Shown one piece after another: positions 44,687-60,031 of a stretch of 64,000 bases of DNA (position 1 is the first letter of the stretch; every line of letters starts with the position of its first letter). A program made the position numbers and the translations under genes. The DNA lies in assembly GCF_040371085.1 (NCBI RefSeq), contig NZ_JAMBMT010000001.1, positions 2,728,001 to 2,792,000 of the forward strand. The letters run 5' to 3'. The notes under the pieces were generated by a model. It did no database searches. It was not told the origin of the DNA and was given only the letters and a program-made list of their open reading frames with translations. This DNA is from Psychrobacter sp. AH5 (GTDB lineage: Bacteria; Pseudomonadota; Gammaproteobacteria; Pseudomonadales; Moraxellaceae).

Positions 44687-45853
44687 ATGAAAAACGAAAG
44701 CTTAGAAAAAAAGAGCTTAGCAAAAGCAGCTGACAAATTAGCTACTTACAACCCTAACCGCACGCCAGTAAAGATAGACTCTACTATTATGGGTAAAGAT
44801 GATCATTCAGCTATTAACACTCAGCCGCAGAGCGCTAATACATTACTAGCGGTTGAAGATTTATCAGTACAGTTCACTACCGAAGATGGTCTAGTGACGG
44901 CGGTCAATGGTTTGAATTTTAACCTACATGAAGGCGAGACTTTAGGCATCGTTGGCGAGTCCGGCTCCGGTAAGTCGCAGACTGCGTTTGCTATTATGGG
45001 ATTGCTGGCTAATAACGGATATGCCAAAGGTTCGGTACGCTTTGAAGGTAAGGAGCTGCTAGGACTATCACAAAAAGCATTGAATAAAATCCGCGCTGAA
45101 CAAATCGCCATGATCTTCCAAGATCCGATGACCTCACTAAACCCTTATATGAGAATAGGGGATCAGCTAGCGGAGGTGTTAATCCTACATAAAGGTATGA
45201 GTAAAAAACAGGCGTGGGCGGAGTCGGTGCGTATGCTAGATGCGGTCAAGATTCCAGAGGCCAAAAAGCGCATTAGTATGTATCCGCATGAGTTTTCAGG
45301 GGGCATGCGTCAGCGGGTGATGATTGCGATGGCGCTACTGTGTCGGCCGAAACTATTGGTCGCTGATGAGCCAACGACTGCGCTCGATGTCACCGTACAA
45401 GCGCAGATTATGGTGTTACTCAACGAGCTAAAACGCGACTTTGGCACTACTATTATTATGATTACTCATGATTTAGGGGTGGTCGCGGGTATTTGTGATC
45501 GGGTGCTAGTGATGTATGCAGGCCGAACCATGGCTTATGGTCAGACCGATGAGATTTTTTATACGCCAACCCATCCTTATACTATTGGACTGCTAAAAGC
45601 CATTCCGCGTTTGGATGATAAAGGCGGCAAGCTTGAAACCATTCCGGGTAGTCCGCCAAACTTATTAAACTTACCTGCCGGCTGTCCATTTTATGAGCGC
45701 TGTAATCATGCTATGGCTATCTGCCGCGATACTCCGCCGCCATTAGAGTTTTTACCGCACGAACGTCAGCGCGCTTGTCACTGGCAACCTGATATACAAA
45801 TCGATAATACTTCGGCTAGTACCACTAATCATAAGTCAAAGGTAGAGGGGTAG
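44687..45853 (+). CDS. oppD: Oligopeptide ABC transporter ATP-binding protein OppD
   Basis: A 388-residue ATPase with Walker [12 protein letters not shown] signature EFSGGMRQR, Walker [13 protein letters not shown] and the C-terminal oligopeptide domain with a cysteine cluster ([16 protein letters not shown]...RACHW) typical of OppD/DppD. The N-terminus has about 50 extra, non-conserved residues before [11 protein letters not shown]; an internal start is possible. Powers uptake with OppF. Confidence 0.95.
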
Positions 45854-45862
45854 AGTAGCACT

Positions 45863-46894
45863 ATGAATACTCAAAATTCACATAGTATCAGTAGCAATCA
45901 GCAAATCCCTTTGTTGCAAGTGCAAGACGTACACACTACCTTTAATATCAAACAAAAAGGGTCGTTTTTTTGGCAAGCGCCCGCGACTTTAAAAGCGGTT
46001 AACGGGGTCTCTTTTGAGCTATTTGCAGGGGAGACTCTAGGAGTGGTTGGGGAGTCAGGCTGCGGTAAGTCGACGCTGGCTCGTACTATTATTGGCTTAA
46101 TACAGGCCAATTCTGGCAGTATTAAATTTTGTGATAAAGAGATGGTCGGTGCTTCCAAAAAGACCATGAGAATGACGCGTAAAGACATTCAAATGATCTT
46201 TCAAGATCCACTAGCATCGCTCAATCCAAGGATGACTGTTGGCGACATTATCGCCGAACCGCTACGCACTTATTATCCAAAAATGAAAAAAACTGAAGTG
46301 CAAGATGAAGTGCGCGCTATTATGAAAAAAGTTGGATTATTATCCAATCAAATCAACCGCTATCCGCATGAGTTCTCAGGCGGTCAGTGTCAGCGTATCG
46401 GTATTGCGCGCGCCCTTATTTTAAAGCCAAAGATTATCATCTGTGATGAACCGGTCTCGGCTCTTGACGTCTCTATTCAGGCGCAGGTGATCAACTTATT
46501 ACAAGAGGTGCAACAGGAGATGGGTCTAGCGCTTATCTTTATTGCTCATGATTTGTCAGTGGTCAAGCACATTGCTGATCGGGTGCTGGTGATGTATTTG
46601 GGTCACGCGGTTGAGCTCGGAGTGGACAAAGCGGTATATGGCAATCCCACTCATCCTTATACGCAGGCGCTGATGTCGGCAGTGCCGCTCCCTGATCCTA
46701 TTGCTGAGCGTAACAAGACCATTCAGCTGTTAGAGGGCGATCTGCCCAGTCCTATTAATCCGCCCTCAGGCTGCGTGTTTCGGACCCGTTGTCCCTTAGC
46801 TGATGCAGAATGCGCACAGATTGAGCCTGTGTTAGAAGGTACTTTAGAGCACCGCGTAGCTTGTCTAAAAAATAAGGTTGAGACAGCTCAATAA
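45863..46894 (+). CDS. oppF: Oligopeptide ABC transporter ATP-binding protein OppF
   Basis: A 343-residue ATPase: Walker A GESGCGKST, signature EFSGGQCQRIGIARAL, Walker B IICDEPVSALD, then the C-terminal GCVFRTRCPLADAEC cysteine motif. The gene is 9 bp after oppD and closes the operon. Its last 7 bp overlap the 3' end of the convergent DUF2798 gene. Confidence 0.95.
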   Translation: MNTQNSHSISSNQQIPLLQVQDVHTTFNIKQKGSFFWQAPATLKAVNGVSFELFAGETLGVVGESGCGKSTLARTIIGLIQANSGSIKFCDKEMVGASKKTMRMTRKDIQMIFQDPLASLNPRMTVGDIIAEPLRTYYPKMKKTEVQDEVRAIMKKVGLLSNQINRYPHEFSGGQCQRIGIARALILKPKIIICDEPVSALDVSIQAQVINLLQEVQQEMGLALIFIAHDLSVVKHIADRVLVMYLGHAVELGVDKAVYGNPTHPYTQALMSAVPLPDPIAERNKTIQLLEGDLPSPINPPSGCVFRTRCPLADAECAQIEPVLEGTLEHRVACLKNKVETAQ

Positions 46895-47142
46895 AACTCT
46901 ATCCGGCTCAGCACATGCTCTTGAATTAGATAAGCACACAAATAAGCACTGGGCCAAGCAAAGAGAAACGCTAGCCACCATGAATTAAATAAATCCGCAA
47001 AGAAATGATCGCTATAACCAGCTTTGACTAATATAAGAGCGGTTGAAATAATAAGCGACATCATCAATGCCATAAGGCAGGTGAAGATAAGCCGATAATA
47101 TTTGCGGCGGGTACGTATTCTAATGGTAGGAAATTTTGCCAT
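46888..47142 (-). CDS. DUF2798 family small membrane protein
   Basis: An 84-residue protein with two membrane helices (about 18-40 and 54-74) and a basic N-terminus. The spacing and the MSLIIS...W-AFLFAWPSAYL pattern fit DUF2798, unknown function. It converges on oppF with a 7-bp overlap. The IS1595-type element begins 75 bp upstream of its start and may affect its promoter. Confidence 0.75.
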   Translation of the reverse strand: MAKFPTIRIRTRRKYYRLIFTCLMALMMSLIISTALILVKAGYSDHFFADLFNSWWLAFLFAWPSAYLCAYLIQEHVLSRIEFY

Positions 47143-47216
47143 AATTTTTATTAATACTCTATTGTTTGATAAATCATAAATACTCAGAAGCGCTATCGTC
47201 AGTTAAAATAATTGTA

Positions 47217-47931
47217 GGGGCTGTAGTAGATAAGCACTATGCTAGACTACTTTTATGAAGATAACCCATTGTAAACTCAGTAAAAAAGTACAGCGAAGGC
47301 TGTTAGAGTTTTTCACAGCTGAAGTGACTGCTAGAACAGCCGCAGATTTGCTTGATATTCAGCCTAATACTGCTGCACTTTTTTATCATAAAATAAGACT
47401 TGTGATAGATTACCATCTCTCATTAGAAGCTGATGAGCTTTTTGATGGTGAAGTCGAATTAGATGAAAGTTACTTTGGCGGTGTACGCAAAGGTAAAAGA
47501 GGTCGCGGGGCTGCTGGTAAAACCGCTGTATTTGGTATTCTAAAACGAAACGGTAAGGTTTATACCATTGTCGTAGCAGACACCAAACAGACTACTCTAA
47601 TGCCTGTTATTAAGCGTAAAATCAAGCCTGACAGCTTTGTTTATACGGATAGCTATCGAAGTTACAACGCATTAGATGTGAGTGAGTTTAAACATTTCAG
47701 AGTCAATCATTCTAAAGAGTTTACTTGCGGTAAAAACAATCACATCAATGGCATTGAGAACTTTTGGAACCAGTCTAAACGAACTCTAAGAAAGTATAAT
47801 GGGATCGATAAGAAGAACTTCCATTTATTTTTAAAAGAGTGCGAGTTTAGATTTAACTATGGCTCACCATCTAATCAGCTGAAAACCTTGAGAAAATGGT
47901 GTGATATTTAATCCTTATCTACTACAGCCCC
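47217..47931 (+). mobile_element. Intact IS1595-family insertion sequence (IS1016-like group)
   Basis: A 715-bp element bounded by perfect 18-bp terminal inverted repeats GGGGCTGTAGTAGATAAG (47217-47234 and complement at 47914-47931). It is flanked by an 8-bp target duplication TAATTGTA (47209-47216 and 47932-47939). It carries one full-length transposase. The ends match the GGGGCTG ends of the IS1016 group from memory. Clean ends and duplication imply a recent insertion. Confidence 0.95.
47255..47911 (+). CDS. IS1595-family transposase
   Basis: A 218-residue DDE-type transposase filling the IS. Acidic catalytic motifs are visible in VELDESYFGG, YTDSYRSYNAL and the third block HINGIENFWNQSKR. 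The N-terminal 50 residues form a helix-turn-helix-like region (ARTAADLLDIQPNTAALFYHKIR). No frameshift or stop, so the element is probably active. Confidence 0.93.
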   Translation: MKITHCKLSKKVQRRLLEFFTAEVTARTAADLLDIQPNTAALFYHKIRLVIDYHLSLEADELFDGEVELDESYFGGVRKGKRGRGAAGKTAVFGILKRNGKVYTIVVADTKQTTLMPVIKRKIKPDSFVYTDSYRSYNALDVSEFKHFRVNHSKEFTCGKNNHINGIENFWNQSKRTLRKYNGIDKKNFHLFLKECEFRFNYGSPSNQLKTLRKWCDI

Positions 47932-48038
47932 TAATTGTATATCCAACCGCGCCACTGTCACAAAGCTTTTAAGTAGAATCTACTATATTGGCTATCGTAG
48001 CTTTGATTTTGATAATTTTAATGTTAATAGCTTTGATA

Positions 48039-49571
48039 TTAATCGCTACCCTGCAATCGGCGCTGCAAGCTTGCAACACCCCGTAGTGGCAAGCGCTTCC
48101 AAGACGTGGTTGGTGCTAGATCACGACAGGTTGCTGAGGTGCCAGCGTGCGCGCGATAGCCCTCGCATCCTTGCGCCGCTTCTTCTTCGGATAGGTTTTT
48201 ACCTTTACGCCAGCCGCCATATAGATATAGTCCTCCGCCCATCACCGCGGTTGCTACCATGCCTGCTGGAAACGACAACCAAAGCGCATCGCTACCAAGC
48301 ATAGGGTATAGTCCAAAAGCGAAGCCCAAGCGCACCGGATACATCGACACCACCATCACCATCAGTGGCCAAATCACGTAGCCGTTGGCGCGCATCGTAC
48401 CAAAGAATACTTGCGCTATGCCAAAGAACATAAAGCCCCACGTTGCCATGATCTGAATATGGCGTCCAATAGGTACTGCTGGGCTATCACTGCCCAAAAA
48501 GAAGCCCAAAATAGTCTTATCAAAGATAGTTAGCACCCCAATCATGGTGCCGGTCAATACCACGTTAAAGATCAGTCCCCAACGGGTAATCCCTGCCACG
48601 CGGCTCCATTGACCCGCCCCGATATTTTGTGCCACCATCGCACTAGCGGCAGCACTTAGCGCCATCGCTGGCATCTGCACGTAAGTCCAAAGCTGCTGAG
48701 TGGCGCTATAAGCGGCGGTTGTCTGTACGCCCTCGCGGTTAATCAGCGATAGCATAGTGAGCGCGGCGGTAGAGATGACGATCATCTGCAAGCCCATTGG
48801 TAAGCCCTTTGAGAATATCGACTTCAAGATACTTAGATCTGCCTTTAAAAATCTTAGCTCAGGCATACTTAGCGTCAGTACCGAGCCGCGCCAGTACATA
48901 GTGCTCACCATACCGACAAGCGCTAAGGTATTGGCAACGGCAGTGGCAACCGCTGAGCCAAAGATGCCCCATTCAGGGAAGGGACCTAGACCCAAAATCA
49001 GCGTCGGCGTCAACACCAAGTCGATAGCGACCGACATAGCGATAAACCAAAGCGGCGTGGTAGAGTCGCCGGTGCCACGTAATGCCATCATCATTAGCGT
49101 AAAGGTGAGCGTGACAGGCATCGCCACAAAGATTATGCGCAGATAAGTCAGCGCCAGCTCAAAAGCAGTGGGCGGAGTCCCTAATAGCTCCAGCAAAGTC
49201 GGCGCAAATATCCAGCCTATCGCCGACAGCACTATACTGATCGGAATAATGCTACCCAGCGCCGTACCCACGGTACGCTTCACTTTGATATCATCGCGCT
49301 CGCCCATCGCCTGACCGATAAAGATAGTCGCCGCCATGCCAAACCCGAAGACGAAGGAGATCATAATAAACATCAAAATATTGCCGTTCGCCGTCGCGGC
49401 CAGCGCCTCTTCTCCCAAAAACCGTCCGACCCAAACGGCGTTGATTGAGCCATTTAGGGATTGTAGCGCCGAGGAGCCAAGAGTTGGCAGGGCAAACAGC
49501 AGCATGGTTTTGGCGATTGACCCTTCGGTAAGGTCACGCGATTTACTCGTGGGAGAACTTATGTCGCTCAA
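48039..49571 (-). CDS. MATE family efflux transporter (with odd C-terminal tail)
   Basis: A 510-residue multidrug/toxin extrusion protein with about 12 membrane helices, starting around TEGSIAKTMLLFALPTLGSSALQSL. Typical MATE positions include SAVATAVANTLALVG and APAMALSAAASAMVAQNIGAG-like segments. The family usually ends near 455-465 residues, here after YLYGGWRKGKNLSEEE. The last 45 residues are unrelated, Cys/Arg/Ser-rich and look like read-through of intergenic, partly palindromic DNA, suggesting loss of the original stop or a frameshift. Substrate unknown. Confidence 0.88.
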   Translation of the reverse strand: MSDISSPTSKSRDLTEGSIAKTMLLFALPTLGSSALQSLNGSINAVWVGRFLGEEALAATANGNILMFIMISFVFGFGMAATIFIGQAMGERDDIKVKRTVGTALGSIIPISIVLSAIGWIFAPTLLELLGTPPTAFELALTYLRIIFVAMPVTLTFTLMMMALRGTGDSTTPLWFIAMSVAIDLVLTPTLILGLGPFPEWGIFGSAVATAVANTLALVGMVSTMYWRGSVLTLSMPELRFLKADLSILKSIFSKGLPMGLQMIVISTAALTMLSLINREGVQTTAAYSATQQLWTYVQMPAMALSAAASAMVAQNIGAGQWSRVAGITRWGLIFNVVLTGTMIGVLTIFDKTILGFFLGSDSPAVPIGRHIQIMATWGFMFFGIAQVFFGTMRANGYVIWPLMVMVVSMYPVRLGFAFGLYPMLGSDALWLSFPAGMVATAVMGGGLYLYGGWRKGKNLSEEEAAQGCEGYRAHAGTSATCRDLAPTTSWKRLPLRGVASLQRRLQGSD

Positions 49572-49875
49572 GGTGCATCCTTTTGTGCCCCTTCAATGGG
49601 CTTTGGTTGATGATAAAAAATGTCCTATCAAAGATGCTAGATAACTCAATTAGGGGTGATGGCATAAGGACTAATGGACTAAATGGGCTTATTATAGAGG
49701 ACAATGCGCGTAAGCTCTTTATTAGAACCGTAAGCAAACAAAGCACTGGCATAATCTACAATGGTAGTCATGGTTTATGCTTGATATGAGCGCATGCTAA
49801 GACTATGCTTTTTTAGCCATTATCTTTTATTTATCTACTAGGTTGTTATCTATCAACTATCACAAGGATGTCTCA

Positions 49876-50823
49876 ATGCTACTCAAACGCCTAGCGCTCG
49901 CTGCGCTATTTAGTCTGTCGGTAGTCGGCTGTACTACTGCGCCCAATACGCTTGCGGTCAATACTACTCAAAAGCTTATCCAATATGAGCGCAATAAATC
50001 TGATCTACAAGTCAAATCATTAACGCTAGCTTCGGGCGATAAGATAGTTTATGCCGAAAATAATAGTTTGGCGGGCGAGCCGTTATTGCTCATTCATGGC
50101 TTCGGCGGTAATAAAGACAACTTCACCCGTATCGCTGATCAGTTAGAGGACTATCATCTGATTATTCCAGACCTCTTAGGATTTGGCGAGTCGAGTAAGC
50201 CCTTGAGCGCCAATTATGATTATGAGGCGCAGGCCACCCGTTTGCATGAGCTATTGCAGGCTAAGGGTGTGGCAAAAAATATCCATGTCGGTGGTAATTC
50301 GATGGGCGGCGCGATCAGTGTGGCCTATGCGGCAAAGTACCTTAAAGAGGTGAAGAGCCTCTGGCTCGTCGATAGCGCAGGATTTTGGTCAGCGGGTCGT
50401 CCTAAATCACTTGAGGGCGCAACTTTGGACAACAATCCACTGCTGATTAAGAGTAAGGAGGATTTTTATAAGATGTACGATTTTGTGATGTATAAGCCGC
50501 CTTATCTACCAAAGTCTGTCAAAGCGGTATTCGCGCAAGAGCGCATCAATAATAAAGCGTTAGATGCCAAAATCCTTGAGCAGATCGTCACAGATAACGT
50601 GGAGGAGCGCGCCAAAATTATTGCTGAGCATAAGATTCCGACGCTGGTCGTCTGGGGCGATAAAGACCAAGTGATTAAGCCTGAAACGGTCGATGTGATT
50701 AAGCAAATCATTCCGCAATCGCAGATTATTATGATGAAAGATATTGGTCATGTGCCGATGGTCGAGGCAGTCGATCAAACGGCGGAGGATTATAAGGTGT
50801 TTCGTGAGGGGATGAAGGAGTAG
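49876..50823 (+). CDS. Alpha/beta hydrolase lipoprotein (lipase-like)
   Basis: A 315-residue exported hydrolase. The ATG at 49876 opens into a lipoprotein signal ending SVVG-C and follows AAGGATG; an earlier in-frame ATG at 49843 would add 11 unlikely residues. The oxyanion/HG motif LIHGFGGNKDNF, the nucleophile elbow GNSMGG, the acid VWGDKDQV and the histidine IGHVPMVE give a complete Ser-Asp-His triad. It resembles cold-active lipases/esterases described from Moraxellaceae. It acts at the cell envelope; substrate unproven. Confidence 0.88.
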   Translation: MLLKRLALAALFSLSVVGCTTAPNTLAVNTTQKLIQYERNKSDLQVKSLTLASGDKIVYAENNSLAGEPLLLIHGFGGNKDNFTRIADQLEDYHLIIPDLLGFGESSKPLSANYDYEAQATRLHELLQAKGVAKNIHVGGNSMGGAISVAYAAKYLKEVKSLWLVDSAGFWSAGRPKSLEGATLDNNPLLIKSKEDFYKMYDFVMYKPPYLPKSVKAVFAQERINNKALDAKILEQIVTDNVEERAKIIAEHKIPTLVVWGDKDQVIKPETVDVIKQIIPQSQIIMMKDIGHVPMVEAVDQTAEDYKVFREGMKE

Positions 50824-50856
50824 CTATTCCCGCTTTACGCTACTATCTTAGCTAGT

Positions 50857-50937
50857 ACAGGGACGGGCGCTAATAGCAAGGGTCGTTCCTGTTGCCTCGA
50901 TACCGCCCCTTGCTAAGCGCCCGTAACCCTGTGCTTT
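50857..50937. repeat. Dispersed palindromic repeat, family R2, copy 2
   Basis: An imperfect hairpin of about 80 bp with arms AGTACAGGG, CGGGCGCT and AGCAAGGG, matched by CCCTTGCT, AGCGCCCG and CCCTGTGCT. The loop contains ACAGGAA-complement and CTCGATAC. It is the inverse of copy 1 (23778-23868). It lies in the 320-bp gap 50824-51143, whose remainder holds the hairpin at 50988-51006 and the tandem palindromes at 51064-51112. Confidence 0.6.
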
Positions 50938-50987
50938 ACTAAGTATATCCGCTGCAATCGAGGCTAAACCGCACCCCAAATCCACCT

Positions 50988-51006
50988 AAAATTGTAGTGC
51001 AATTTT
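50988..51006 (+). terminator. Short terminator-like hairpin
   Basis: AAAATTG / CAATTTT arms with a 5-nt loop end in TTTTTT. It could end transcription from the hydrolase gene 165 bp upstream, but the stem is AT-rich. Confidence 0.35.
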
Positions 51007-51063
51007 TTGACGGTGCTCAGGCTAAAAAGCTTCCTAAGTCCACCTCTACTGCTTTTGATGGAG

Positions 51064-51112
51064 TTAACTACAGATTTGTAGTTAAAATATTTGACTACGG
51101 TTTTGTAGTTAA
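51064..51112. promoter_or_regulatory. Tandem ACTACA palindromes at the island edge
   Basis: A perfect palindrome TTAACTACA-GATT-TGTAGTTAA (51064-51085) is followed by a near copy TTGACTAC-N6-GTAGTTAA (51091-51112). They lie 32 bp beyond the 3' end of the 591-aa gene. They could be transcript-end hairpins or protein sites; there is no promoter directly beside them. Confidence 0.4.
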
Positions 51113-51143
51113 GTAGTTATTATCAATATTACTACTCCGTCTA

Positions 51144-52919
51144 TTATTTTTTTCGAATTCTTAGAGGTAGCGGGAATGAAGAGTTGTAAGGATAAGGTTT
51201 TGTGCTAGGCTGATTGCTAACAAAATTGACTAAAGTTTCTAAAACGTCTTCAGTAGTGCCTTCAGACAATATCCTTACTCTACGACCCTCACTATTGCGG
51301 ATAGATATTGGTATCTTCTTAAAGCGATACATCATCTTGTTTTGTTCGTCTTCATCAAAGTTTGTATCAAGTTTCCAATATAACCTGTTATGTTGCCATT
51401 CTGGTTGTCCGATAGGTTCGAAAACCGACCATGAAAACATCATTGTATTTTTTAAAACCTCATAGTTATTTGAGTTTATACGCTCATTATTCTCAATATT
51501 AGAAACAATTGTTCTAGCTCGACTAAAATTTTCATAGTTATATGTACCCAAACATAAATATAACGAAACAATGCAGGTAATTAGCTCATTACGATCTTTT
51601 ATTGGACTTTTTTTCGATATGTTTTTGCTTTGAGTTTTAGTTTGGCGACTATAGTTATATGCGTCTTGTACCCTACGAGCATCATCTAAACACCTACTAA
51701 CTTCGGATAATGAGTTGTAAAGATCAAAGTCAATAATAGAAACAATAGCTTTTGGTATTTGATCTATCTTTCTAAATAATCCGATAGAGTTCTCTGTATA
51801 CCATTCGCTTAATATAGTTAATGCATTCTCATTATTGAGCTTTGTTTCATGTTTCTTTTCTACATAAGGTATTGCTAATATTCCAACATTTTCGTTTGCG
51901 GTACGCTCTTTAGACTCAAAACTAGCCTTTAACGCAATTTTAATATTGTCCATTAACTGTTGTAGTTGATTAAGCTTATAGATATCCTCTAAAGGTGCTC
52001 TATCAACCGTTATAGTTACGTGACTATTGTTTCCATCATTAGCTATGTTAAAAAAATTCGTTTCCTTTGTACCATATAACATGTTTGATGAATAATTGTC
52101 GTCATAAATATAACGAAATACATCGTTTGCCCAAGCACCTAGTTTAATCGCTATATCTGCTCTAACACCTTGTATTAATGTCTTCTTTTCTAATAACCCA
52201 CCTTCTTTAATCACCTCGGCATAATGCTCTTTCTTAAGAAGATTTAACATTTTTTTCTTCTCATCCGATAGACTATATTCACTAATCCATCGCCCATGAT
52301 CATCTTTAAAACCCTCTGCATTCGATTCTAACTTTATTTTTTCAAACAAGGCTGTCTTAATTATGCTTTTATCATATACAGTGCTGTTAAGAAATTTTTG
52401 AAAAATAGTCATTGTATATTTGAGCGAGGCATACATCTCGTAATATGTATATTGTTTCTTACTATCTTTTAGATCTGGCTCTATACCATGAATATTATCA
52501 AGAGGAGCAAAGGCAATTTGTGTATCTTGTATAGATGATAGTATTTCATCAATAGCATCAGCTTTAATTTTATCCTTTAAAAGCAATAATTTTAGGACAA
52601 CGTCATTACTACCTTTATTAGCCTCCATCATTTGTAATATTTCACTTCTAATCTTTGAAATCTCACTCCCGTTAGATGAATCCTCCACGCTAAACACGAT
52701 ATCAATAAGCTTCAATCTAGCTTTAACATTTGCGCCACTTTCAGGGTGTAATATAAGCTGTCTTGTGTATAGCATCACTAAAAATACCTGCTCAAACACC
52801 ATCTTAGTAACGTTTTGGGTCTCTTTGACAATACTATCTATATCCTTATCTCGTACTCCTAGTATTTCCAGATTTAAATTGATTAGCTTTTCATCGTCTT
52901 TTTTGTAACTTGAGTTCAT
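51144..52919 (-). CDS. Unknown 591-aa protein of the viperin island
   Basis: Not recognised. 591 residues, soluble, mostly helical by composition, rich in K, N, I and S, with no signal peptide or membrane segment and no Walker or nuclease motif that I can find. The N-terminal third (about 1-150) reads as long helices (ETQNVTKMVFEQVFLVMLYTRQLI). A beta-rich part follows around 290-310 (NNSHVTITVDRAP). The C-terminus ends in a basic RIRKK. The gene is as AT-rich as the divergent DUF4258-like/viperin pair and shares their promoter region, so it is probably part of the same acquired unit. Confidence 0.8.
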   Translation of the reverse strand: MNSSYKKDDEKLINLNLEILGVRDKDIDSIVKETQNVTKMVFEQVFLVMLYTRQLILHPESGANVKARLKLIDIVFSVEDSSNGSEISKIRSEILQMMEANKGSNDVVLKLLLLKDKIKADAIDEILSSIQDTQIAFAPLDNIHGIEPDLKDSKKQYTYYEMYASLKYTMTIFQKFLNSTVYDKSIIKTALFEKIKLESNAEGFKDDHGRWISEYSLSDEKKKMLNLLKKEHYAEVIKEGGLLEKKTLIQGVRADIAIKLGAWANDVFRYIYDDNYSSNMLYGTKETNFFNIANDGNNSHVTITVDRAPLEDIYKLNQLQQLMDNIKIALKASFESKERTANENVGILAIPYVEKKHETKLNNENALTILSEWYTENSIGLFRKIDQIPKAIVSIIDFDLYNSLSEVSRCLDDARRVQDAYNYSRQTKTQSKNISKKSPIKDRNELITCIVSLYLCLGTYNYENFSRARTIVSNIENNERINSNNYEVLKNTMMFSWSVFEPIGQPEWQHNRLYWKLDTNFDEDEQNKMMYRFKKIPISIRNSEGRRVRILSEGTTEDVLETLVNFVSNQPSTKPYPYNSSFPLPLRIRKK

Positions 52920-53043
52920 TCAGGATTTCCTAAGTATAGTCTGGCTTTTAATTAGTTAGCGATACTGTTTGTAAGATATTTCTATATTGAATATGCTTAT
53001 AAATATATTGTGTCAGTATTGAGATATAAATTTACTATATTTT

Positions 53044-53097
53044 TACAATATAGATACTATTATTTGTTATTAAAATAATAATCGTATCTATATTGTA
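53044..53097. promoter_or_regulatory. Large inverted repeat in the divergent island promoter
   Basis: Arms of 21 bp with one mismatch (53044-53064 and 53077-53097) have a perfect outer 13-bp core ACAATATAGATAC / GTATCTATATTGT and a 12-bp spacer. It sits in the 301-bp gap (52920-53220) between the 591-aa gene and the DUF4258-like gene; a partial copy of the half-site (ATATCTATATT) occurs near 53137-53147. Position and symmetry suggest an operator controlling both directions. The remainder of the gap is AT-rich promoter DNA. Confidence 0.55.
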
Positions 53098-53220
53098 TCT
53101 TATAAATTTTAAAATAGATGAAAATGGGATAAACCATATCTATATTCTACTTTATTTCTCCTACTATTGTAGTATTATTTAATTCTCGATATAACAATGT
53201 TCTATAGATAGGAGGTATTT

Positions 53221-53580
53221 ATGAGAGTTACAACCCATATGGCACAGCGGATGAATAATCGTGGCATTGTCCAAAGTATGGTCGATTTGACTCTAGAAAT
53301 AGGCGTTATTAAGGGAGACAGATATATAACTGACCGTCGATGTTTGAATGACTATTTAAACGATTTAGACACTAAATTAGTAAGTTTTCGTTCAATTTAT
53401 AAGAAATATGAGCACTTTAGAGCTTCAAATATTATGGCTAAAGCAATCACTAGGCTGGTACAACTCAGGAGTTTGGTCCTCAAGATGATGAATAAAGGAG
53501 GGGTAACGGTAGTGGTTTGTGGAAACAACTTGGTGACTACCTACAATACGGATAGCCATCATCAATATAAATCATACTAA
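53221..53580 (+). CDS. DUF4258-like small protein next to viperin
   Basis: A 119-residue protein preceded by a strong Shine-Dalgarno AGGAGGT (53210-53216). The N-terminal THMAQRMNNRGIVQSMVDLTLEIG and C-terminal GGVTVVVCGNNLVTTYN follow the DUF4258 pattern (H-x3-RM-x-RGI ... VVV ... TvY), related to small RNase-like or toxin-like folds. A charged insert (about 45-85) is longer than usual. It ends 7 bp before the viperin gene, so the two are almost surely co-transcribed. Role unknown: partner, regulator or toxin are possible. Confidence 0.72.
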   Translation: MRVTTHMAQRMNNRGIVQSMVDLTLEIGVIKGDRYITDRRCLNDYLNDLDTKLVSFRSIYKKYEHFRASNIMAKAITRLVQLRSLVLKMMNKGGVTVVVCGNNLVTTYNTDSHHQYKSY

Positions 53581-53587
53581 TAGAGAT

Positions 53588-54502
53588 ATGAATATGCACA
53601 ATACATTTGAGCTCGTTATAAACTGGCATTTTACCGAAGCTTGCAACTACGCTTGTGATTTTTGTTTTGCAAAGTGGGATAAACAAGGCAGAAAAGAGCT
53701 GTTTCATGACGAACACTTGACAGATAAGCTGTTAAACGAAATTTTTGAGTTGAAGACTATACTGGAAGACGAACAAAATATTAAATTCGATGGTGTTAGA
53801 TTAAACTTAGTTGGTGGTGAGATATTTTTATACAAAGCTAAAGCTATTCATATCATAAGGCGTGCTAAAAGTTATGGCTTTCATGTGTCCGCTATTACAA
53901 ATGGCAGTCGTGTTGACAATGAACTAATCTCATTAATAGCTGAAAATCTAGACTATATAGGATTTAGTGTGGATTCTACAAATCATAAAACTAATTTAAT
54001 TATCGGAAGATCTGAGAAGAACAAGGTAATGAATACTAACAAAGTTCGTAGCGATATCCATGCTTTGCGAAAGTTAAACTCTGAGATAGATATTAAAATC
54101 AATACGGTAGTTAATAGCAATAATTTTGATGAAGATTTATCGAGCTTTATTAAGAATGTTAATCCTTCTAAATGGAAGGTATTTAAGGTATTGCCCAGTC
54201 AGGGCTATACTTCAACAATTACAGACACAATGTTTAGAGTGTTTTTAGATAAGCATTCGGAGTTTGAGGACATCATAGCATCAGAAGACAACAATGAGAT
54301 GATGGATTCATATATAATGATAGACCCATTAGGTCGTTTCTTCCAAAACTCTAATTTAACTGACGGTTATGTTTATAGCCATCCTATTGTCGAGATTGGT
54401 ATTAAAGAGGCACTTAGTCAAATAAACTTCAGTTTTGATAAGTTTTTAGGCCGTTATAACATCAATGAAAAACTTACCGATACTGTTCCAACCTTTATAT
54501 AA
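53588..54502 (+). CDS. Prokaryotic viperin (radical SAM ddhNTP synthase)
   Basis: A 304-residue radical SAM enzyme aligning by eye with animal viperin over its whole catalytic part. The 4Fe-4S motif C19-x3-C23-x2-C26 (EACNYACDFCF) is followed by GGE (76-78), IGRSEKNK, KINTVVNSNNF (170-180), NPSKWKVFK (about 192-200), DSYIMIDPLGRF (240-251) and EIGIKEAL. The corresponding viperin segments include CNYKCGFCF, KINSVIN, RWKVFQ and DSYLILDEYMRF. Viperins convert nucleoside triphosphates to 3'-deoxy-3',4'-didehydro forms that stop viral RNA synthesis. The C-terminus is shorter than the animal protein and lacks its amphipathic N-terminal helix. Which NTP is used cannot be read here. No nucleotide kinase is adjacent. 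Confidence 0.93.
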   Translation: MNMHNTFELVINWHFTEACNYACDFCFAKWDKQGRKELFHDEHLTDKLLNEIFELKTILEDEQNIKFDGVRLNLVGGEIFLYKAKAIHIIRRAKSYGFHVSAITNGSRVDNELISLIAENLDYIGFSVDSTNHKTNLIIGRSEKNKVMNTNKVRSDIHALRKLNSEIDIKINTVVNSNNFDEDLSSFIKNVNPSKWKVFKVLPSQGYTSTITDTMFRVFLDKHSEFEDIIASEDNNEMMDSYIMIDPLGRFFQNSNLTDGYVYSHPIVEIGIKEALSQINFSFDKFLGRYNINEKLTDTVPTFI

Positions 54503-54609
54503 TTTTAATGCAGAAAGCAAGTATCAATAAGATTTTTGAACATGATCATTAGTTACAATAGCTTAGACCTAATTTGACAATATGCCTAATTAACATAATG
54601 TAAACAATC

Positions 54610-54632
54610 GGTGCGCGTAGCGCACCCTACTC
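54610..54632. repeat. Small R1-related palindrome
   Basis: GGTGCGC-GTA-GCGCACC followed by CTAC resembles the terminal part (GTAGGGTGCG) of repeat R1. It lies in the gap after the viperin gene, which otherwise holds only the DsrE terminator. Confidence 0.4.
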
Positions 54633-54684
54633 AAGATTTTAATTTATTTAACTATACAACCGTTTAAAATCAAGTCTTTAAGAC

Positions 54685-54736
54685 AAAAAAGAGCCAGTTC
54701 TCCAAACCATCAAAAGACAGTTAAAAGAACTAGCTC
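54685..54736 (-). terminator. Terminator after the DsrE-family gene
   Basis: Arms GAGCCAGTTCT (54691-54701) and AGAACTAGCTC (54726-54736), one mismatch, are followed on the minus strand by six T. The loop is long (24 nt). Confidence 0.65.
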
Positions 54737-54759
54737 AGTGTTAGAACTATTAAAAACGC

Positions 54760-55137
54760 TTAATTCAACTGCAAAGAACCCTTCGCCGCCATCAACAGCT
54801 CAACCACATCATCGCCACTGATTTTGGTGAAGCGTTTATCGATAACAGAGTCTTTGATACCGTTATGCTCCATACACGCGCCGCACACCAACACGTTACC
54901 ACCTTTCTCGATAAAGGCTTCTAGCAACTCTTTAGCAGGTTTAAAAGGTGCGCCGATATCGACCTTGTCTAAAGCATTGGGTACGCCCAAATGTACCGCA
55001 TCGACCATTAAAATAATTGATGCCGAATGACCTTGGTCAAGTGCCACGCCTCCCATGGTAAACGCTAAGGTGATTTTACTGGGGTTGGAGTCCGCATTAT
55101 CGAATAGAGTGCCTACGTAATCTGTTTTATTAGCCAT
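54760..55137 (-). CDS. DsrE family protein
   Basis: A 125-residue cytoplasmic protein of the DsrE/DsrF-like family (sulfur-relay fold). Visible: ALDQGHSASIILMVDAVHLG and the conserved cysteine region VLVCGACMEHNGI. The two cysteines there could carry persulfide, but no sulfur-oxidation genes are adjacent, so the role is open. The gene has its own terminator. Confidence 0.82.
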   Translation of the reverse strand: MANKTDYVGTLFDNADSNPSKITLAFTMGGVALDQGHSASIILMVDAVHLGVPNALDKVDIGAPFKPAKELLEAFIEKGGNVLVCGACMEHNGIKDSVIDKRFTKISGDDVVELLMAAKGSLQLN

Positions 55138-55296
55138 ATTATTTTCCTTATAAAAGATATTTTTTTTGAATTCATATTTTCTCGAACTATCTTTACTACT
55201 CTAACATTTACTATATTTATTTATATAATGTATTGTTATCAAATAGTAGCTATAAGGTTACTTGGTGGTGAGGCGTTCATTAAGCCAAATGCTAAA

Positions 55297-55839
55297 CTAA
55301 AGCTTTGGCGGCCACGGACGATCATCGTCGCTCTCAATCCATTCTGCAACATAACCGGTCGGCGGCAGTTGCCAATCTGCTTGCCCCAATGCTTCTAGTA
55401 CTCTTGCCGTCTCAATGACCTTGCCTTTTTCAGTGACACCCGTGCGTAGTAGTGCAGAAGAGCAGGGTTTTCCTTTAACCCACATCGATTGTTCGATATA
55501 TATCCAGCGCGCGTCAAACCCAGCAATATGTGTTTTCATCGTCACTTTATCAAAAGCGCGGATGCGTTTGCGATATTGGATAGTGCTGCCAGCAACTACC
55601 AATCCCCAGCGCTGTTTGAGCAGCTGCCGACCTAAGCCACTACGAACCGCAAAGTCTGTGCGTCCCATATCGTATAGCGTCAGAACTCGGCCATTATTCA
55701 TCTCAAGGAAATTATCGATATCAGAGAGGCGGCAATATAAAGTAATCTCGCTAGTGTCTTTAAAGCTCAGAGTATTACCTTTTTTGACTTGTACAGCAGC
55801 TTTGACGATAGTGCTGGCATAACGAATAAAAGGATACAT
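55297..55839 (-). CDS. Hotdog-fold acyl-CoA thioesterase
   Basis: A 180-residue protein of the 4HBT_2/THEM6-like group. SDIDNFLEMNNGRVLTLYDMGRTDFAVR matches the N-terminal catalytic helix region, followed by QYRKRI and the strand WIYIEQSMWVKGKPCSSALLR. It probably hydrolyses an acyl-CoA; substrate unknown. It is followed by a gap to the DsrE gene on the same strand. Confidence 0.8.
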   Translation of the reverse strand: MYPFIRYASTIVKAAVQVKKGNTLSFKDTSEITLYCRLSDIDNFLEMNNGRVLTLYDMGRTDFAVRSGLGRQLLKQRWGLVVAGSTIQYRKRIRAFDKVTMKTHIAGFDARWIYIEQSMWVKGKPCSSALLRTGVTEKGKVIETARVLEALGQADWQLPPTGYVAEWIESDDDRPWPPKL

Positions 55840-55898
55840 AAAAGGGATCTCAAAAGGTAAATAAAGGTTTAATTTATTGAGTGGCTAAGCTCATTCGG

Positions 55899-56927
55899 TT
55901 ATTTATTGGAGGCTACACCGATAAAGTTAAAATAAGCGCTGACAGTTTCGGGTAGCCAATTGATATCGAACTTTGAGGTCTTATCATGGCCTTGAGCTTG
56001 CTTGCTATCCGAGCGATAGCGGATATAGCCGACGTGCCCGCCATGCTTGGTATCGATAATGGTGACGCAGTCGGAGACATCGTTAGCGGTAGCGGTAAAG
56101 CCCAAAAAGGGATCGTCCTCAGCACTAATCAGTAATAACGGCTTGGTGACATCACGCAGGTAGGGGAGGGCTGAGGCGCTGTGATAGTAGTCGTTATTAG
56201 AGCGATAGCCATGACGCGGCGCGGTAAAGATATCATCGAAGTCGCTGATGCGATTGACCGCTTTGATGGAGTCGATCTCCTCTTTACTAATATCGTTGGC
56301 TAGCGCTTTTTTGATAATCGGATTGAGCAGATAAGGGGTATAAATACGATGACTCAAAAAGCTATGCATGCTCAGCGCCGCTGATGACATATCGACAGGG
56401 GCGGAGATGACCGCTGCGCCCTTGCATAAGGCTTCGTCGCCGTATTCGCCCATGTATTTGGCTAGAGCATTACCGCCTAGTGAGACGCCAACGGCATAGA
56501 TATTGTCATAGCGCTCACGCAAGTTTTGTAGCATGTAGTGCAACTCGCCGGTATCGCCGGCGTTATAAAATACCCGTCCGCTAGCAGGAATACCGCCGCA
56601 ACTTCTGAAATGAGCGACGACAAAGTGCCAGCCCTGCGCGTGCATCTGATAAGCCAAAGCGCGAGCATAATGGCTATCGCTACTGCCTTCCATACCATGA
56701 AAGAGCACAATCAATGGCGTCTGCTCAAGTTCACCATTTTCTGAATTTTCTATAGGATGTGCATCATAAAAGTCATAGGCAATATCACTTTCACCCAAAG
56801 AGTCTTTGCGCACCACGCGTCTATACTCAGGGGACTTGGGCGCAAAAAACTTTGGTAAAATGCTTTGTAGATGCGGATTGGTCAACCAAAAAGGCGGTTT
56901 GAATTCATTATAAGTAAAATTGCTCAT
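55899..56927 (-). CDS. YheT family alpha/beta hydrolase
   Basis: A 342-residue hydrolase beginning with the YheT signature PPFWLTNPHLQSILP. It has LFHGMEGSSDSHYARAL, the RSCGG segment and nucleophile elbow GVSLGGNALAKYMGE. The acid is in SAEDDPFLG and the histidine in GGHVGY. The family acts on ester or lipid substrates that are not well defined. A parS site lies 34 bp upstream of its start. Confidence 0.9.
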   Translation of the reverse strand: MSNFTYNEFKPPFWLTNPHLQSILPKFFAPKSPEYRRVVRKDSLGESDIAYDFYDAHPIENSENGELEQTPLIVLFHGMEGSSDSHYARALAYQMHAQGWHFVVAHFRSCGGIPASGRVFYNAGDTGELHYMLQNLRERYDNIYAVGVSLGGNALAKYMGEYGDEALCKGAAVISAPVDMSSAALSMHSFLSHRIYTPYLLNPIIKKALANDISKEEIDSIKAVNRISDFDDIFTAPRHGYRSNNDYYHSASALPYLRDVTKPLLLISAEDDPFLGFTATANDVSDCVTIIDTKHGGHVGYIRYRSDSKQAQGHDKTSKFDINWLPETVSAYFNFIGVASNK

Positions 56928-56960
56928 AGAATAGGGTCTAATAGATAAGGTAAAATAATT

Positions 56961-56976
56961 AGTTTCACGTGAAACA
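56961..56976. promoter_or_regulatory. parS: parS site upstream of the YheT gene
   Basis: AGTTTCACGTGAAACA differs from consensus at the first base. Non-coding position, about 52 kb from oriC. Confidence 0.75.
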
Positions 56977-57191
56977 TAGTAATGTTTTATAACTTTGAAT
57001 CGTTTAAGTACAGTTTTCAGATTTACGCTAGGGTATTTATCGATTGATCATCATACTAAGCGATGGCGGACGTTCCAATATCTTTTAGTGAACGCCTTAG
57101 TGAACAGATGATTACTGTTCGCGATTTTAACAATTACTTTAATGGTTACTTTAACGGTTACTTGAGCTAAGCTGACCTTGATTTATCAAGT

Positions 57192-57791
57192 TTATGTATC
57201 AGCCGCTAGCACTTTACCAGCCATCGCCAGCTCAGTCTTTAACGTCTCAATATCAGCCTCAGCGATAGTCACGCTCAAGGTTACTTGCTTGCTATAAGTC
57301 ACCTCATCGATAGTCCCGTCCATACTTTCAACCACATAACGGCACTGTGACTCGTGAGCGAAGTCAGCCAGTATCTGTACTTGTGTCATTGGCACATAGG
57401 GCTGCAATATCATCTGATCGACAGCCGCTTGGGCTGAGCCAGCATAGGCGCGAGTCAATCCGCCAGCGCCAAGCTTGATCCCGCCAAAGTAGCGCACCAC
57501 TATGATAATGACATTGCCGATAGACTTGTGCTGCAATACATTTAATATCGGTCGTCCTGCGGTGCCACTCGGCTCGCCATCATCATCGAAGCCAGCGCTA
57601 GTGGTATTATCAGGATCGCCAATGATATACGCCCAGCACCAGTGACGCGCGTCGGGGTATTTATCGCGCAAATGTTCCACATGAAACATCGCTTGCTCAC
57701 GCGAATGAACCGGATAAGCATAAGCGATAAACTCAGACTTCTTAATCTCGAGCCGCGCCGTAACGGGCTTTTTTAGGGTTTGATAACTCAT
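57192..57791 (-). CDS. yigZ: YigZ/IMPACT family protein
   Basis: A 199-residue protein of the UPF0029/IMPACT family. DARHWCWAYIIGD and FDDDGEPSGTAGRPILNVL followed by IIVVRYFGGIKLGAGGLTRAY are diagnostic. Bacterial members may bind ribosomes or RNA; the role is not settled. A parS-like site at 57673-57688 is inside, read as F-H-V-E-H. Confidence 0.92.
   Translation of the reverse strand: MSYQTLKKPVTARLEIKKSEFIAYAYPVHSREQAMFHVEHLRDKYPDARHWCWAYIIGDPDNTTSAGFDDDGEPSGTAGRPILNVLQHKSIGNVIIIVVRYFGGIKLGAGGLTRAYAGSAQAAVDQMILQPYVPMTQVQILADFAHESQCRYVVESMDGTIDEVTYSKQVTLSVTIAEADIETLKTELAMAGKVLAADT
57673..57688. promoter_or_regulatory. parS-like site inside yigZ
   Basis: TGTTCCACATGAAACA, two changes from consensus, in coding DNA. 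Confidence 0.45.
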
Positions 57792-57882
57792 AATGTAGTG
57801 ATGATACGCTTAGGTTTGGATAGGATATGTTAAACTGGCACCACTATAACAAAACCCTATAATAGCAAAGGTAGTAAAAAGT

Positions 57883-58587
57883 ATGCGTCTCGATAAATTT
57901 ATTAGTAAAGCCACTGAGCTGTCGCGTAAAGAGTCCAAAAAGATCCTCCATGCCAGCGAGGTCACGGTCAATGACGAAGTGGTCAAAGATCCAGGCCTGC
58001 ATGTCGATATCGTCAATGACGAAGTACTATGGGCAGGTGAGCCTCTATCGGTCGCTACCGGCAGCCGCTATATTCTTTTGCATAAGCCTGAAGGCTTTGA
58101 GTGTACCCTCAAGGCCAAAGAGTACCCTATCGTTACCGAACTGATCGCGGTGCCAGAATTAGGTAGCCTACGTATTGCCGGACGCTTAGATGTCGATACT
58201 ACTGGCGCACTGCTCATCAGCGATGATGGCGGCTGGCTGCACCGCGTGACTAGTCCTAAGCACGAGCACGCCAAAGTTTATGAGCTAACCTTAGCCGATC
58301 CTATGGACGCGGACGAGCAAGCCCATGCGATCAAAAAGGTGGGCGAAGGGATTTTATTAGACGGTGATTATGAGCCGACTAAACCTGCAACCCTTGAGTT
58401 TATCGATGAGACCCATGCGCGTCTAACGCTTGAGCAAGGCAAATACCATCAAGTCAAACGTATGATGGGCTACTTCGGTAATAAAGTCGTTGAGCTGCAT
58501 CGCGCCAGTATCGGTCATATCACTCTAGAAGGATTAGAGAAGGGCGATAGTCGCTTTTTGACAAGTGAGGAAGTCGAGAAGTTTTAG
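57883..58587 (+). CDS. rsuA: 16S rRNA pseudouridine(516) synthase RsuA
   Basis: A 234-residue pseudouridine synthase. An N-terminal S4 domain (MRLDKFISKATELSRKESKK) is followed by the catalytic aspartate motif AGRLDVDTTGALL and the EGKYHQVKRM-type motif seen as LEQGKYHQVKRMMGYFG. It matches RsuA/RluF-type enzymes, RsuA best. Divergent from yigZ with a 91-bp shared promoter region. Confidence 0.9.
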   Translation: MRLDKFISKATELSRKESKKILHASEVTVNDEVVKDPGLHVDIVNDEVLWAGEPLSVATGSRYILLHKPEGFECTLKAKEYPIVTELIAVPELGSLRIAGRLDVDTTGALLISDDGGWLHRVTSPKHEHAKVYELTLADPMDADEQAHAIKKVGEGILLDGDYEPTKPATLEFIDETHARLTLEQGKYHQVKRMMGYFGNKVVELHRASIGHITLEGLEKGDSRFLTSEEVEKF

Positions 58588-58608
58588 AAGTCATGTAATT
58601 AATTTTGC

Positions 58609-58723
58609 GTAGGGTGAGGTTGGTTTTATCAAATTCTCGCAAAGAGTTTCAATAAAACGTAACCCACCTTTTAATAATGACCTAATCCAAATGGTGAGTT
58701 ACGCTTCGCTAACCATACCCTAC
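58609..58723. repeat. Dispersed palindromic repeat, family R1, copy 2
   Basis: 115 bp, the partner of 16762-16877: same end GTAGGGTG, centre AATAAAACGTAACCCACC, then GAGTTACGCTTCGCTAACC, closing with the complementary CACCCTAC-like end. It sits in the 370-bp gap after rsuA; the rest of the gap shows no gene. Confidence 0.75.
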
Positions 58724-58957
58724 AACCATGCAATGTTTTTACCTTATTTTCTTAGCCTCTATTGCGCCTCCCTTAAGCTCAAGTAGCAGATTTGCAAAAA
58801 CCAACCGCAAGTCCTTCCTGAAATTAGTCCCTACGCTAACCCTATGCTAAAGTGCTGATACCTTTTTAATCTACTTTTTTAGATAGTATTTTTAACTAAA
58901 TGCTGATTATCTATGCGCGGCTAATATGCGCTTAGTTAATAGAGGCTATTTGCTAGG

Positions 58958-60031
58958 ATGTTTGCTGTGAAACCAACTTTATGTAAGTCTGCTAGTATCA
59001 TTACTGCTTTATTGTTAGCGACAAGCGCTTGTGCTGAGCCAGTATCAGCCCCTAATATGAGCGAAGCTACCCATACCCAATCCGTAAACAAAGCTCTTAC
59101 AAGTGATATAGCGAGTAATACAGACAGGCACTTACGCCAAGTATTGCTTGATGTCGGCATCAAGGCACAAATAGTGTCTATTGAAAAATCCAATCTACCC
59201 AATATGTTTCAGGTCAATCTAGTAGGGCAGCCGCCGCTGCATATCACAGCCGACGGCAAATACGTTATTCAAGGCGAGCTCCAAAAAAACCCAAGCCCGC
59301 AAGCCGTGAAGCAAAATCCAAAACGCGCTACCAGCGCGCAAGCAGGCTCTTATGTGAGTACTGAACTCAAATCTTCGCTGCTAGCCAATATGTCAGCATT
59401 AAAGAATATCAGCGCCAAAACCCCTTTCTTTTATACGGCGGTGCCTGGCGTGATTTGGGGCGCTACTCTCGAGGGTGTGCCGTTCTTATTGTCAGATGAT
59501 GGCCAGTACATTACTGATGGCGAGATATCCGTTATTGAGAATGCTCAGTTTACGGGACTCGATGAGACTTTTGAGGCCAATAAAAATAAGGCGGTGTTTG
59601 CCTCATTAGATGCCTCGCAGCTGATTACTTATCCTGCCACGACTAGCGAGAGAGCCGTCATTTATGTCGCCACCGATGTCAACTGCCCTTATTGTCGTCA
59701 GCTGCATAAGCAAATGGCGAGTCTGAATAAAAAAGGCGTTACGGTAAAAACCATTGGCTATCCGATCTACGAGCAGTCGCCTGAGCAGATGCGCGGTATT
59801 TGGTGTCAAAAGGATGAGGCCAGTCGCCGTAGTGCGCTAGACAAAGCCATGCTACAAGGCCGGATGACGCCAGCGCCGGCTAGCTGCACGAGCGACTACA
59901 TTACCCCCAATCGCAAAAAAGCGGCAGGGTTAGCAGTGATAGCGACGCCAGCGATTTATCGTGATGATGGGGTGCTTTATCAAGCAAGCTTTGAGAGCCC
60001 TGAATTTTTGCAGTTTTTGGGAGTGCAGTAG
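58958..60031 (+). CDS. DsbC-like thioredoxin-fold protein with two N-terminal domains
   Basis: An exported protein of 357 residues (354 from the better-spaced GTG at 58967; AGGA at 58954-58957 touches the ATG). A signal peptide ends around SACA-EPV. The C-terminal thioredoxin domain has the disulfide motif CPYC (243-246 from the ATG), as in DsbC/DsbG isomerases. The DsbC N-terminal dimerisation domain appears twice: residues about 65-110 (PNMFQVNLVGQPPLHITADGKY) and about 155-195 (PGVIWGATLEGVPFLLSDDGQY). A single copy is normal. It is probably a periplasmic disulfide isomerase with altered oligomeric state. A strong terminator follows. Confidence 0.85.
   Translation: MFAVKPTLCKSASIITALLLATSACAEPVSAPNMSEATHTQSVNKALTSDIASNTDRHLRQVLLDVGIKAQIVSIEKSNLPNMFQVNLVGQPPLHITADGKYVIQGELQKNPSPQAVKQNPKRATSAQAGSYVSTELKSSLLANMSALKNISAKTPFFYTAVPGVIWGATLEGVPFLLSDDGQYITDGEISVIENAQFTGLDETFEANKNKAVFASLDASQLITYPATTSERAVIYVATDVNCPYCRQLHKQMASLNKKGVTVKTIGYPIYEQSPEQMRGIWCQKDEASRRSALDKAMLQGRMTPAPASCTSDYITPNRKKAAGLAVIATPAIYRDDGVLYQASFESPEFLQFLGVQ

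Follow-up and report, generated by a model that had tools for sequence, protein, structure and literature searches.

A viperin gene, a DUF4258-related gene, and a divergent gene of a 591-residue protein family form a recurrent candidate anti-phage cassette in Psychrobacter

Introduction

Does a viperin gene of Psychrobacter sp. AH5 act by itself, or is it one part of a larger defense system that includes the two genes next to it? The locus lies in a stretch of 64,000 nucleotides (nt) of contig NZ_JAMBMT010000001.1 (assembly GCF_040371085.1; positions 2,728,001 to 2,792,000 of the forward strand), which is referred to here as the window and whose positions are used below. G000 is the genome of the window, and L, G, P, and H numbers designate loci, genomes, proteins, and plasmid viperins, respectively. 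Prokaryotic viperins (pVips) were reportedly described by Bernheim et al. in 2021, and the viperin family is expected to make chain-terminating ddh-nucleotides. An earlier note on this DNA proposed that the viperin, a DUF4258-like protein of 119 amino acids (aa), and a divergently encoded 591-aa protein form an antiviral module that is larger than viperin alone. The analysis described here supports a real three-gene defense module and makes it unlikely that the two additional genes are passengers. At a probability of roughly 0.45, we favor the reading that the locus is a horizontally exchanged anti-phage cassette in which viperin is the effector, the 119-aa protein is an RNase-type toxin, and the 591-aa protein is their controller.

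A viperin gene with two companions

The three open reading frames (ORFs) have exactly the sizes, strands, and coordinates given in the earlier note. In the ORF list the gene for the 591-aa protein (51144-52919, minus strand) is divergent to an operon in which the 119-aa protein gene comes first (53221-53580, plus strand) and the gene for a 304-aa viperin-family radical SAM protein comes second (53588-54502, plus strand). The tight coupling claimed for the operon is evident from the 7-bp gap between the stop codon of the 119-aa gene and the viperin ATG, and the strong Shine-Dalgarno-like sequence is AGGAGG (53210..53215, plus strand), five bases ahead of the ATG of the 119-aa gene. All three genes are AT-rich, with G+C fractions of 0.325 (591-aa protein), 0.369 (119-aa protein), and 0.330 (viperin) versus 0.432 for the window. 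Inspection of the ORF list by eye found no ORF for a nucleotide kinase adjoining the viperin gene, as the note had said.

Model scores, motifs, and tree placement agree in identifying the radical SAM protein as a viperin. It scored 320.4 bits against the NCBIfam equivalog model for prokaryotic viperins (NF038283, cut-off 180) and matched two PADLOC pVip models over its full length (PDLC02903, 305.8 bits; the other model, 279.2 bits). The best PADLOC model for this protein is designated "Viperins not associated with kinases." Nine sequences in the PDB, viperin-like or RSAD2, matched it at E <= 0.001 (best, 6.9e-29), and the motifs that had been recognized by eye (CxxxCxxC, GGE, KINTVVN, KWKVFK, and DSYIMID) are all present and align to solved viperin-like or RSAD2 sequences in the three alignments displayed of these nine matches. 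In a tree of 30 rows (26 viperins and four other radical SAM proteins, excluding the G102 viperin at L091, whose start is unclear, and an empty outgroup row), the protein fell among the viperins, in a 12-row Moraxellaceae clade (support, 98/99). The fork between viperins and the outgroup had lower support (85/87), and one of the outgroup branches was very long. The module-bearing viperins did not form a separate clade. A viperin over the cut-off was found in 5 of the 369 genomes of a class-wide draw, the genome of the window included.

Several other viperin loci have neighbors of their own. In Psychrobacter genome G444 (contig C13; L081 8743-16891) an LRAT-like gene and a viperin gene lie directly ahead of genes that by eye resemble a type III CRISPR system with CARF/Csm6-like proteins. 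The viperin of genome G596 (L083 1597-4441), sister to that of Acinetobacter towneri, is encoded behind a 617-aa protein, with a weak FGE-sulfatase stretch below the cut-off, instead of the 119-aa and 591-aa partners. At two Pseudoalteromonas loci (L064 5983-8255 and L065 6007-8270) the viperin gene overlaps the start of a gene for a DUF4145 protein. In genome G054 (L089), about 11 kb separates a full viperin from a shorter C-terminal stretch that is viperin-like (1586-1927 and 12877-13854).

Recurrence of the module beside viperin genes

The families of the 591-aa and 119-aa proteins, as called with profiles built in this analysis, adjoin viperin genes in three genera with order and orientation kept. 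The full three-gene order, with the 591-type gene divergent, is present in the window, in two further Psychrobacter genomes (G017 and G470, the latter Psychrobacter sp. NZS113), and on two plasmids of one Moraxella osloensis strain and one plasmid of A. towneri. The intergenic gaps between the 591-type and 119-type genes are 292 to 331 bp. The plasmid proteins are distant relatives. A tblastn search of plasmids with the 591-aa protein returned four records (the two M. osloensis plasmids, the A. towneri plasmid, and Psychrobacter plasmid pP62BP1), in which the relatives are about 25% identical to the query (E of 1e-19, 4e-24, and 3e-12 for Moraxella, A. towneri, and pP62BP1, respectively); the A. 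towneri protein as the query added two Pantoea plasmids. The 119-aa protein matched the Moraxella and A. towneri module plasmids at tblastn E values of 5e-16 and 2e-14.

Among 105 Psychrobacter genomes, the 591 family was found in four, a strong match to the 119-aa protein in three, and a viperin (E <= 1e-20) in five; weak matches to the 119-aa protein in seven further genomes (E of 1e-4 to 9e-4) were not counted. All four Psychrobacter genomes with the 591 family hold a viperin, which is adjacent in three and on another contig in G444. In a family survey of 299 Moraxellaceae genomes, viperin was present in 11 and the 591 family in four. Co-occurrence of the two had a hypergeometric P of 1e-6 in either the Psychrobacter or the Moraxellaceae set, and of 6e-4 when the three related modules were counted once. 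The corresponding values for plasmids were 2e-11 and, with the Moraxella pair counted once, 9e-8. Fourteen plasmid records contained a viperin, and the surroundings were read for 12 of them (H5 to H7 by way of the 591 matches); the two left out, H10 and H13, had no tblastn match to the 591-aa or 119-aa protein.

An LRAT-like gene stands between the 119-type gene and the viperin gene at the Moraxella and A. towneri loci (a Pfam assignment for A. towneri). The LRAT-like protein was considered as a required part of the module and rejected: it is absent from all three Psychrobacter modules, and 26 of the 29 plasmid records with a relative of it are not among the 14 viperin plasmid records (neighbors were read for four of the LRAT-like records).

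A chromosomal hotspot and exchange of the cassette

To the right of the cassette lie a DsrE-family gene and a conserved gene for a 180-aa protein (54760..55839, minus strand), which adjoin variable cargo in other Psychrobacter genomes and mark the right border of a hotspot. The 180-aa gene has a match in 59 Psychrobacter genomes. In 17 of the 20 genomes whose loci were fetched the DsrE gene is also present, and the cargo toward the left-hand genes is varied or almost nil. When ten cargo proteins from seven loci were scanned, strong PADLOC matches were obtained for a type IIG restriction enzyme with its specificity gene, an AIPR/AbiU-type protein, a DzbA-DzbB pair, and an LmuA-type protein; the other scanned loci held a NACHT protein in one case, a weakly matched AAA pair in another, and nothing in a third. 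The cassette sits in a chromosomal hotspot that carries defense genes in related genomes. Proteins of about 396 and 690 aa recur as a pair, judged by size, at four hotspot loci (L110, L111, L112, and L123), and the one pair scanned was AAA-type with weak PADLOC matches. About 3 kb to the left of the module is an IS1595-type transposase gene (47255-47911).

Three independent genes might simply have accumulated in this hotspot and on plasmids. The mixed cargo of the hotspot, and the fact that the 591 and 119 families are each also found without viperin, would fit accidental proximity. However, order and orientation are kept in three genera, on chromosomes and on plasmids, at 25% identity between 591-type proteins, and the co-occurrence statistics also argue against chance, so that accidental neighbors are improbable. 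The three-gene architecture kept across genera instead supports the earlier proposal of a system larger than viperin alone. Neither outcome that the note had named as refuting it, a lack of recurrence of the two families with viperins or a position of the radical SAM protein outside the viperin clade, was observed.

The cassette has been horizontally exchanged between species. Its approximate extent is 51016..54566, beyond which identity to G470 falls off: the left side (0.39) shows no alignable homology, and the right side (about 0.75) is homologous chromosome. Synonymous divergence (dS, computed with our own Nei-Gojobori script) between G000 and G470 was 0.234 for the 591-aa gene, 0.202 for the 119-aa gene, and 0.359 for viperin, versus 1.10 for the DsrE gene and saturation for the 180-aa gene. 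Module dS thus is far below flank dS, which indicates that this module was exchanged more recently than the flanks diverged.

The 591-aa gene keeps its ends and exchanges its middle between strains. The 5' end (52772..52919, minus strand) is 93% identical, and the 3' end (51159..51308, minus strand) 89 to 91% identical, in all three Psychrobacter pairs. Between these ends, at 89 to 93% overall, the G017 allele is 50 to 67% identical to that of the window, and G470 and G017 are only 51 to 73% identical to each other. A similar pattern is seen in the proteins P0009 to P0013, which compared with the window protein are 92 to 96% identical in residues 1 to 50, 29 to 33% in residues 401 to 520, and 83 to 93% in residues 521 to 591. 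The overall ratio of nonsynonymous to synonymous divergence (dN/dS) of the gene is 0.25 to 0.29, and the mosaic is therefore attributed to exchange of diverged alleles, with no sign of positive selection.

The 591-aa protein family

The designation of the 591-aa protein as a member of no recognized family held: there was no match in Pfam, NCBIfam, or PADLOC at E <= 1, and PHROG gave three weak matches (best E, 0.0034). A protein search returned 27 relatives, of which the four that carry an organism name are from Psychrobacter; P0009 and P0029 have consecutive locus tags. The predicted model is mostly helical (pLDDT, 79; pTM, 0.84), and a search with it yielded no significant structural match. 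The family appeared in 1 of 398 genomes of a phylum-wide draw, that of the window itself.

A phage origin was considered and rejected: neither the viperin, nor the 591-aa protein, nor the relative of the latter in G444 matched any of 50,697 phage records, and scans of IMG/VR with a few short patterns found neither the 591 family nor the Moraxellaceae viperin alignment.

The 119-aa protein is related to DUF4258

The DUF4258-like label given to the 119-aa protein stands in part. The protein itself scored 16.8 bits against Pfam DUF4258 (E of 0.0088), below the gathering score of 25, and is for this reason termed a relative rather than a member of the family. Its 119-type homologue in A. towneri was also under the cut-off, and that of M. 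osloensis had no DUF4258 match in the Pfam scan. In contrast, two shorter homologues of 86 aa, without the insert described below, pass the gathering score (27.2 bits at L097 and 25.3 bits at L094) and align to the 119-aa protein over the entire length. One of them, from Acinetobacter sp. NEB149, matched the 119-aa protein at a BLAST E of 1.7e-17 in a set of a few dozen proteins and at a tblastn E of 1e-9 over all plasmids. Residues M1, T4, H6, R14, G28, GG, V98, T106, Y108, and S112 are invariant in nine aligned relatives. The predicted model (pLDDT, 86.9) begins with two helices and two strands, continues in a long helical hairpin, and ends with two more strands and a short helix; in a VIA-align fold comparison the match list was filled by the hairpin. 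DUF4258 is placed in the RelE/ParE (BECR) superfamily, with its activity listed as unknown, in PMC11980606. Thus, the 119-aa protein is best called DUF4258-related and RelE-like, and RNase activity is assumed for it.

Relatives of the 119-aa protein occur in 18 plasmid records (tblastn), and the surroundings were read for seven. On a plasmid of Acinetobacter sp. WCHA55 (L095 6001-12324), 119-type, LRAT-like, AAA, and PIN genes follow one another, with brxL and a DarT-family gene nearby. Plasmid pMsp11 of Acinetobacter sp. NEB149 (L097 2986-6011) encodes a dynamin-family protein, with a start that by eye is helix-turn-helix-like, divergent to genes for the DUF4258 protein and a DUF3944/Ubiq_cyt_C_chap protein; the layout resembles that of the window module with other parts. 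DUF4258 relatives also precede DNA methyltransferase genes on an IMG/VR contig (L094 1807-8618, by eye) and, as annotated, on Roseovarius (L096 5001-9108) and Synechococcus (L098 5001-7118) plasmids. Scans of IMG/VR found one DUF4258 relative and no match for the NEB149 DUF4258 protein.

Interchangeable small genes opposite the 591 family

A small divergent gene faces the 591-type gene at all ten loci read for this family, two of which are near-copies on the plasmids of the one Moraxella strain. The small gene is 119-type at six loci, hicA at two, and neither at the two Pantoea loci, so that at 8 of 10 loci it is related to RNase-type toxins. The HicA genes are those of G444 and pP62BP1 (Pfam, 69.1 and 61.4 bits; cut-off, 27), and other small genes follow them; in G444 the following gene encodes a 145-aa Gly/Ala-rich protein. 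The Pantoea small genes encode 117 and 105 aa and match no Pfam family. A 215-aa protein encoded near a lone Psychrobacter viperin (L082 8454-9101) is 54% identical to a 221-aa protein of the HicA operon on pP62BP1 (L059 5389-6054); no Pfam family scored above the cut-off.

The main rival explanation is that the 591-aa protein mainly neutralizes the divergently encoded RNase-type toxin, as its antitoxin or antidote, with viperin as one of several effectors and no sensing of phage. The 591 family faces toxins of two unrelated families (DUF4258-related and HicA), which would be consistent with such a role, as would the variety of genes behind the toxin gene: viperin, LRAT-like plus viperin, the 145-aa Gly/Ala-rich protein, or 60- and 221-aa proteins. 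However, it would be unusual for one antitoxin family to counter two different folds, the 591-aa protein is bigger than antitoxins usually are, and the Pantoea relatives face neither toxin. Furthermore, the middle of the 591-aa gene is swapped between G470 and G017, but the 119-aa partners remain 92% identical, unlike what is expected of toxin-antitoxin co-evolution. We consider the antitoxin explanation unlikely, if still the strongest competitor.

The intergenic region

The divergent intergenic region contains an inverted repeat (53044..53097, no strand) with 21-nt arms that are 95% complementary and 12 nt apart. Its core, AGATAC...GTATCT, is also present in the corresponding regions of G470 and G017, and the repeat is a candidate operator-like element or hairpin. 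No Rfam match to a structured RNA was found in 45000-60000 of the window, and promoter and terminator scans of the region were no better than those of shuffled sequence.

If the repeat is an operator, the 119-aa and 591-aa proteins might do nothing more than regulate transcription of the viperin operon. The divergent layout and the core kept in three Psychrobacter species could be explained in this way, as could the inverted repeats in the pP62BP1 intergenic region (best, 17 nt at 88%) and an imperfect 13-nt palindrome in that of M. osloensis. However, neither protein has a recognizable DNA-binding domain, the A. towneri intergenic region has no inverted repeat at the same settings, and DNA of 22% G+C is expected to contain short inverted repeats. 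Purely transcriptional regulation is therefore improbable.

A working model for the cassette

In the favored reading, that of an exchanged anti-phage cassette with a controller, viperin would serve as the effector, presumably through its expected nucleotide products, and the 119-aa protein would be an RNase-type toxin that acts with viperin or gates its expression. The 591-aa protein would recognize infection via its interchangeable middle and hold back or release the toxin/viperin operon. We infer sensing or toxin restraint by this protein from the divergent layout, the mosaic pattern, and the swapping of partners, which together suggest that it helps to decide when the antiviral genes are switched on.

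Several observations weigh against this reading. Viperin can do without the module, which is absent from 8 of the 11 genomes with a viperin in the family survey, from 9 of the 12 plasmid viperins read, and from five viperin loci outside the family (L089 to L093). In the tree, the sister of the A. towneri viperin has no module (100/99). Conversely, the 591 family also occurs without an adjoining viperin on pP62BP1, on contig C21 of G444, and in Pantoea. The 591-aa protein has yielded no known fold and no sensor, nuclease, or DNA-binder motif, the 119-aa protein is under the DUF4258 cut-off, and an antitoxin gene of the usual size was not found. Finally, dS between G470 and G017 differs gene by gene (viperin, 0.05; 119-aa gene, 0.32; 591-aa gene, 1.14; flank, 0.19 and 0.32), which indicates that in this pair the three genes were not transferred together as a unit.

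Restriction-enzyme specificity subunits swap specificity parts between kept ends. A broader and more tentative reading of the 591 family is that it might be an undescribed class of defense controller that faces an interchangeable RNase-type toxin and an interchangeable effector, with specificity changed by swapping of the middle, as in these subunits. The toxins would be DUF4258-related or HicA, and the effectors viperin, LRAT-like plus viperin, or a Gly/Ala-rich membrane-type protein. The locus is compact and lends itself to experimental tests: the natural alleles of the 591-aa gene vary chiefly in their middle part, and the adjoining viperin is nearly constant.

Comparison with known systems

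Genes for hicA and relE beside prokaryotic viperins have been described (classes 9 and 10 in PMC10865869), and section 10 of that paper poses as a question how the toxins are regulated and whether they add any defense. The small protein is therefore of a known kind; the novelty lies in the 591-aa family, a published description of which was not found in the open-access literature on viperin, DUF4258, LRAT, HicA, and RelE (the family has no name). It is a candidate answer to how viperin-linked RNase toxins are controlled and, if the broader reading given above is correct, would be the regulator that the question of that section calls for.

The window viperin resembles other pVips in its full-length match to viperin models and in the motifs that it shares with solved viperin-like enzymes. 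It differs in its position behind a DUF4258-related gene and opposite the 591-aa protein, with no nucleotide kinase adjoining. This also sets it apart from kinase-associated pVips; of the 12 plasmid viperins read, 4 have an annotated nucleotide kinase as a neighbor. The 119-aa protein is similar to DUF4258 (PF14076) in its N-terminal part, and its two 86-aa homologues pass the gathering score of that family, but it differs in carrying a helical-hairpin insert of about 30 residues and in scoring below the cut-off. The HicA- and RelE-adjacent pVips are also close to the window locus, in that a small RNase-type toxin gene adjoins the viperin gene. Section 10 of PMC10865869 mentions no divergent large gene, whereas here a member of the 591 family faces the small gene, and this family is common to the DUF4258-type and HicA-type loci.

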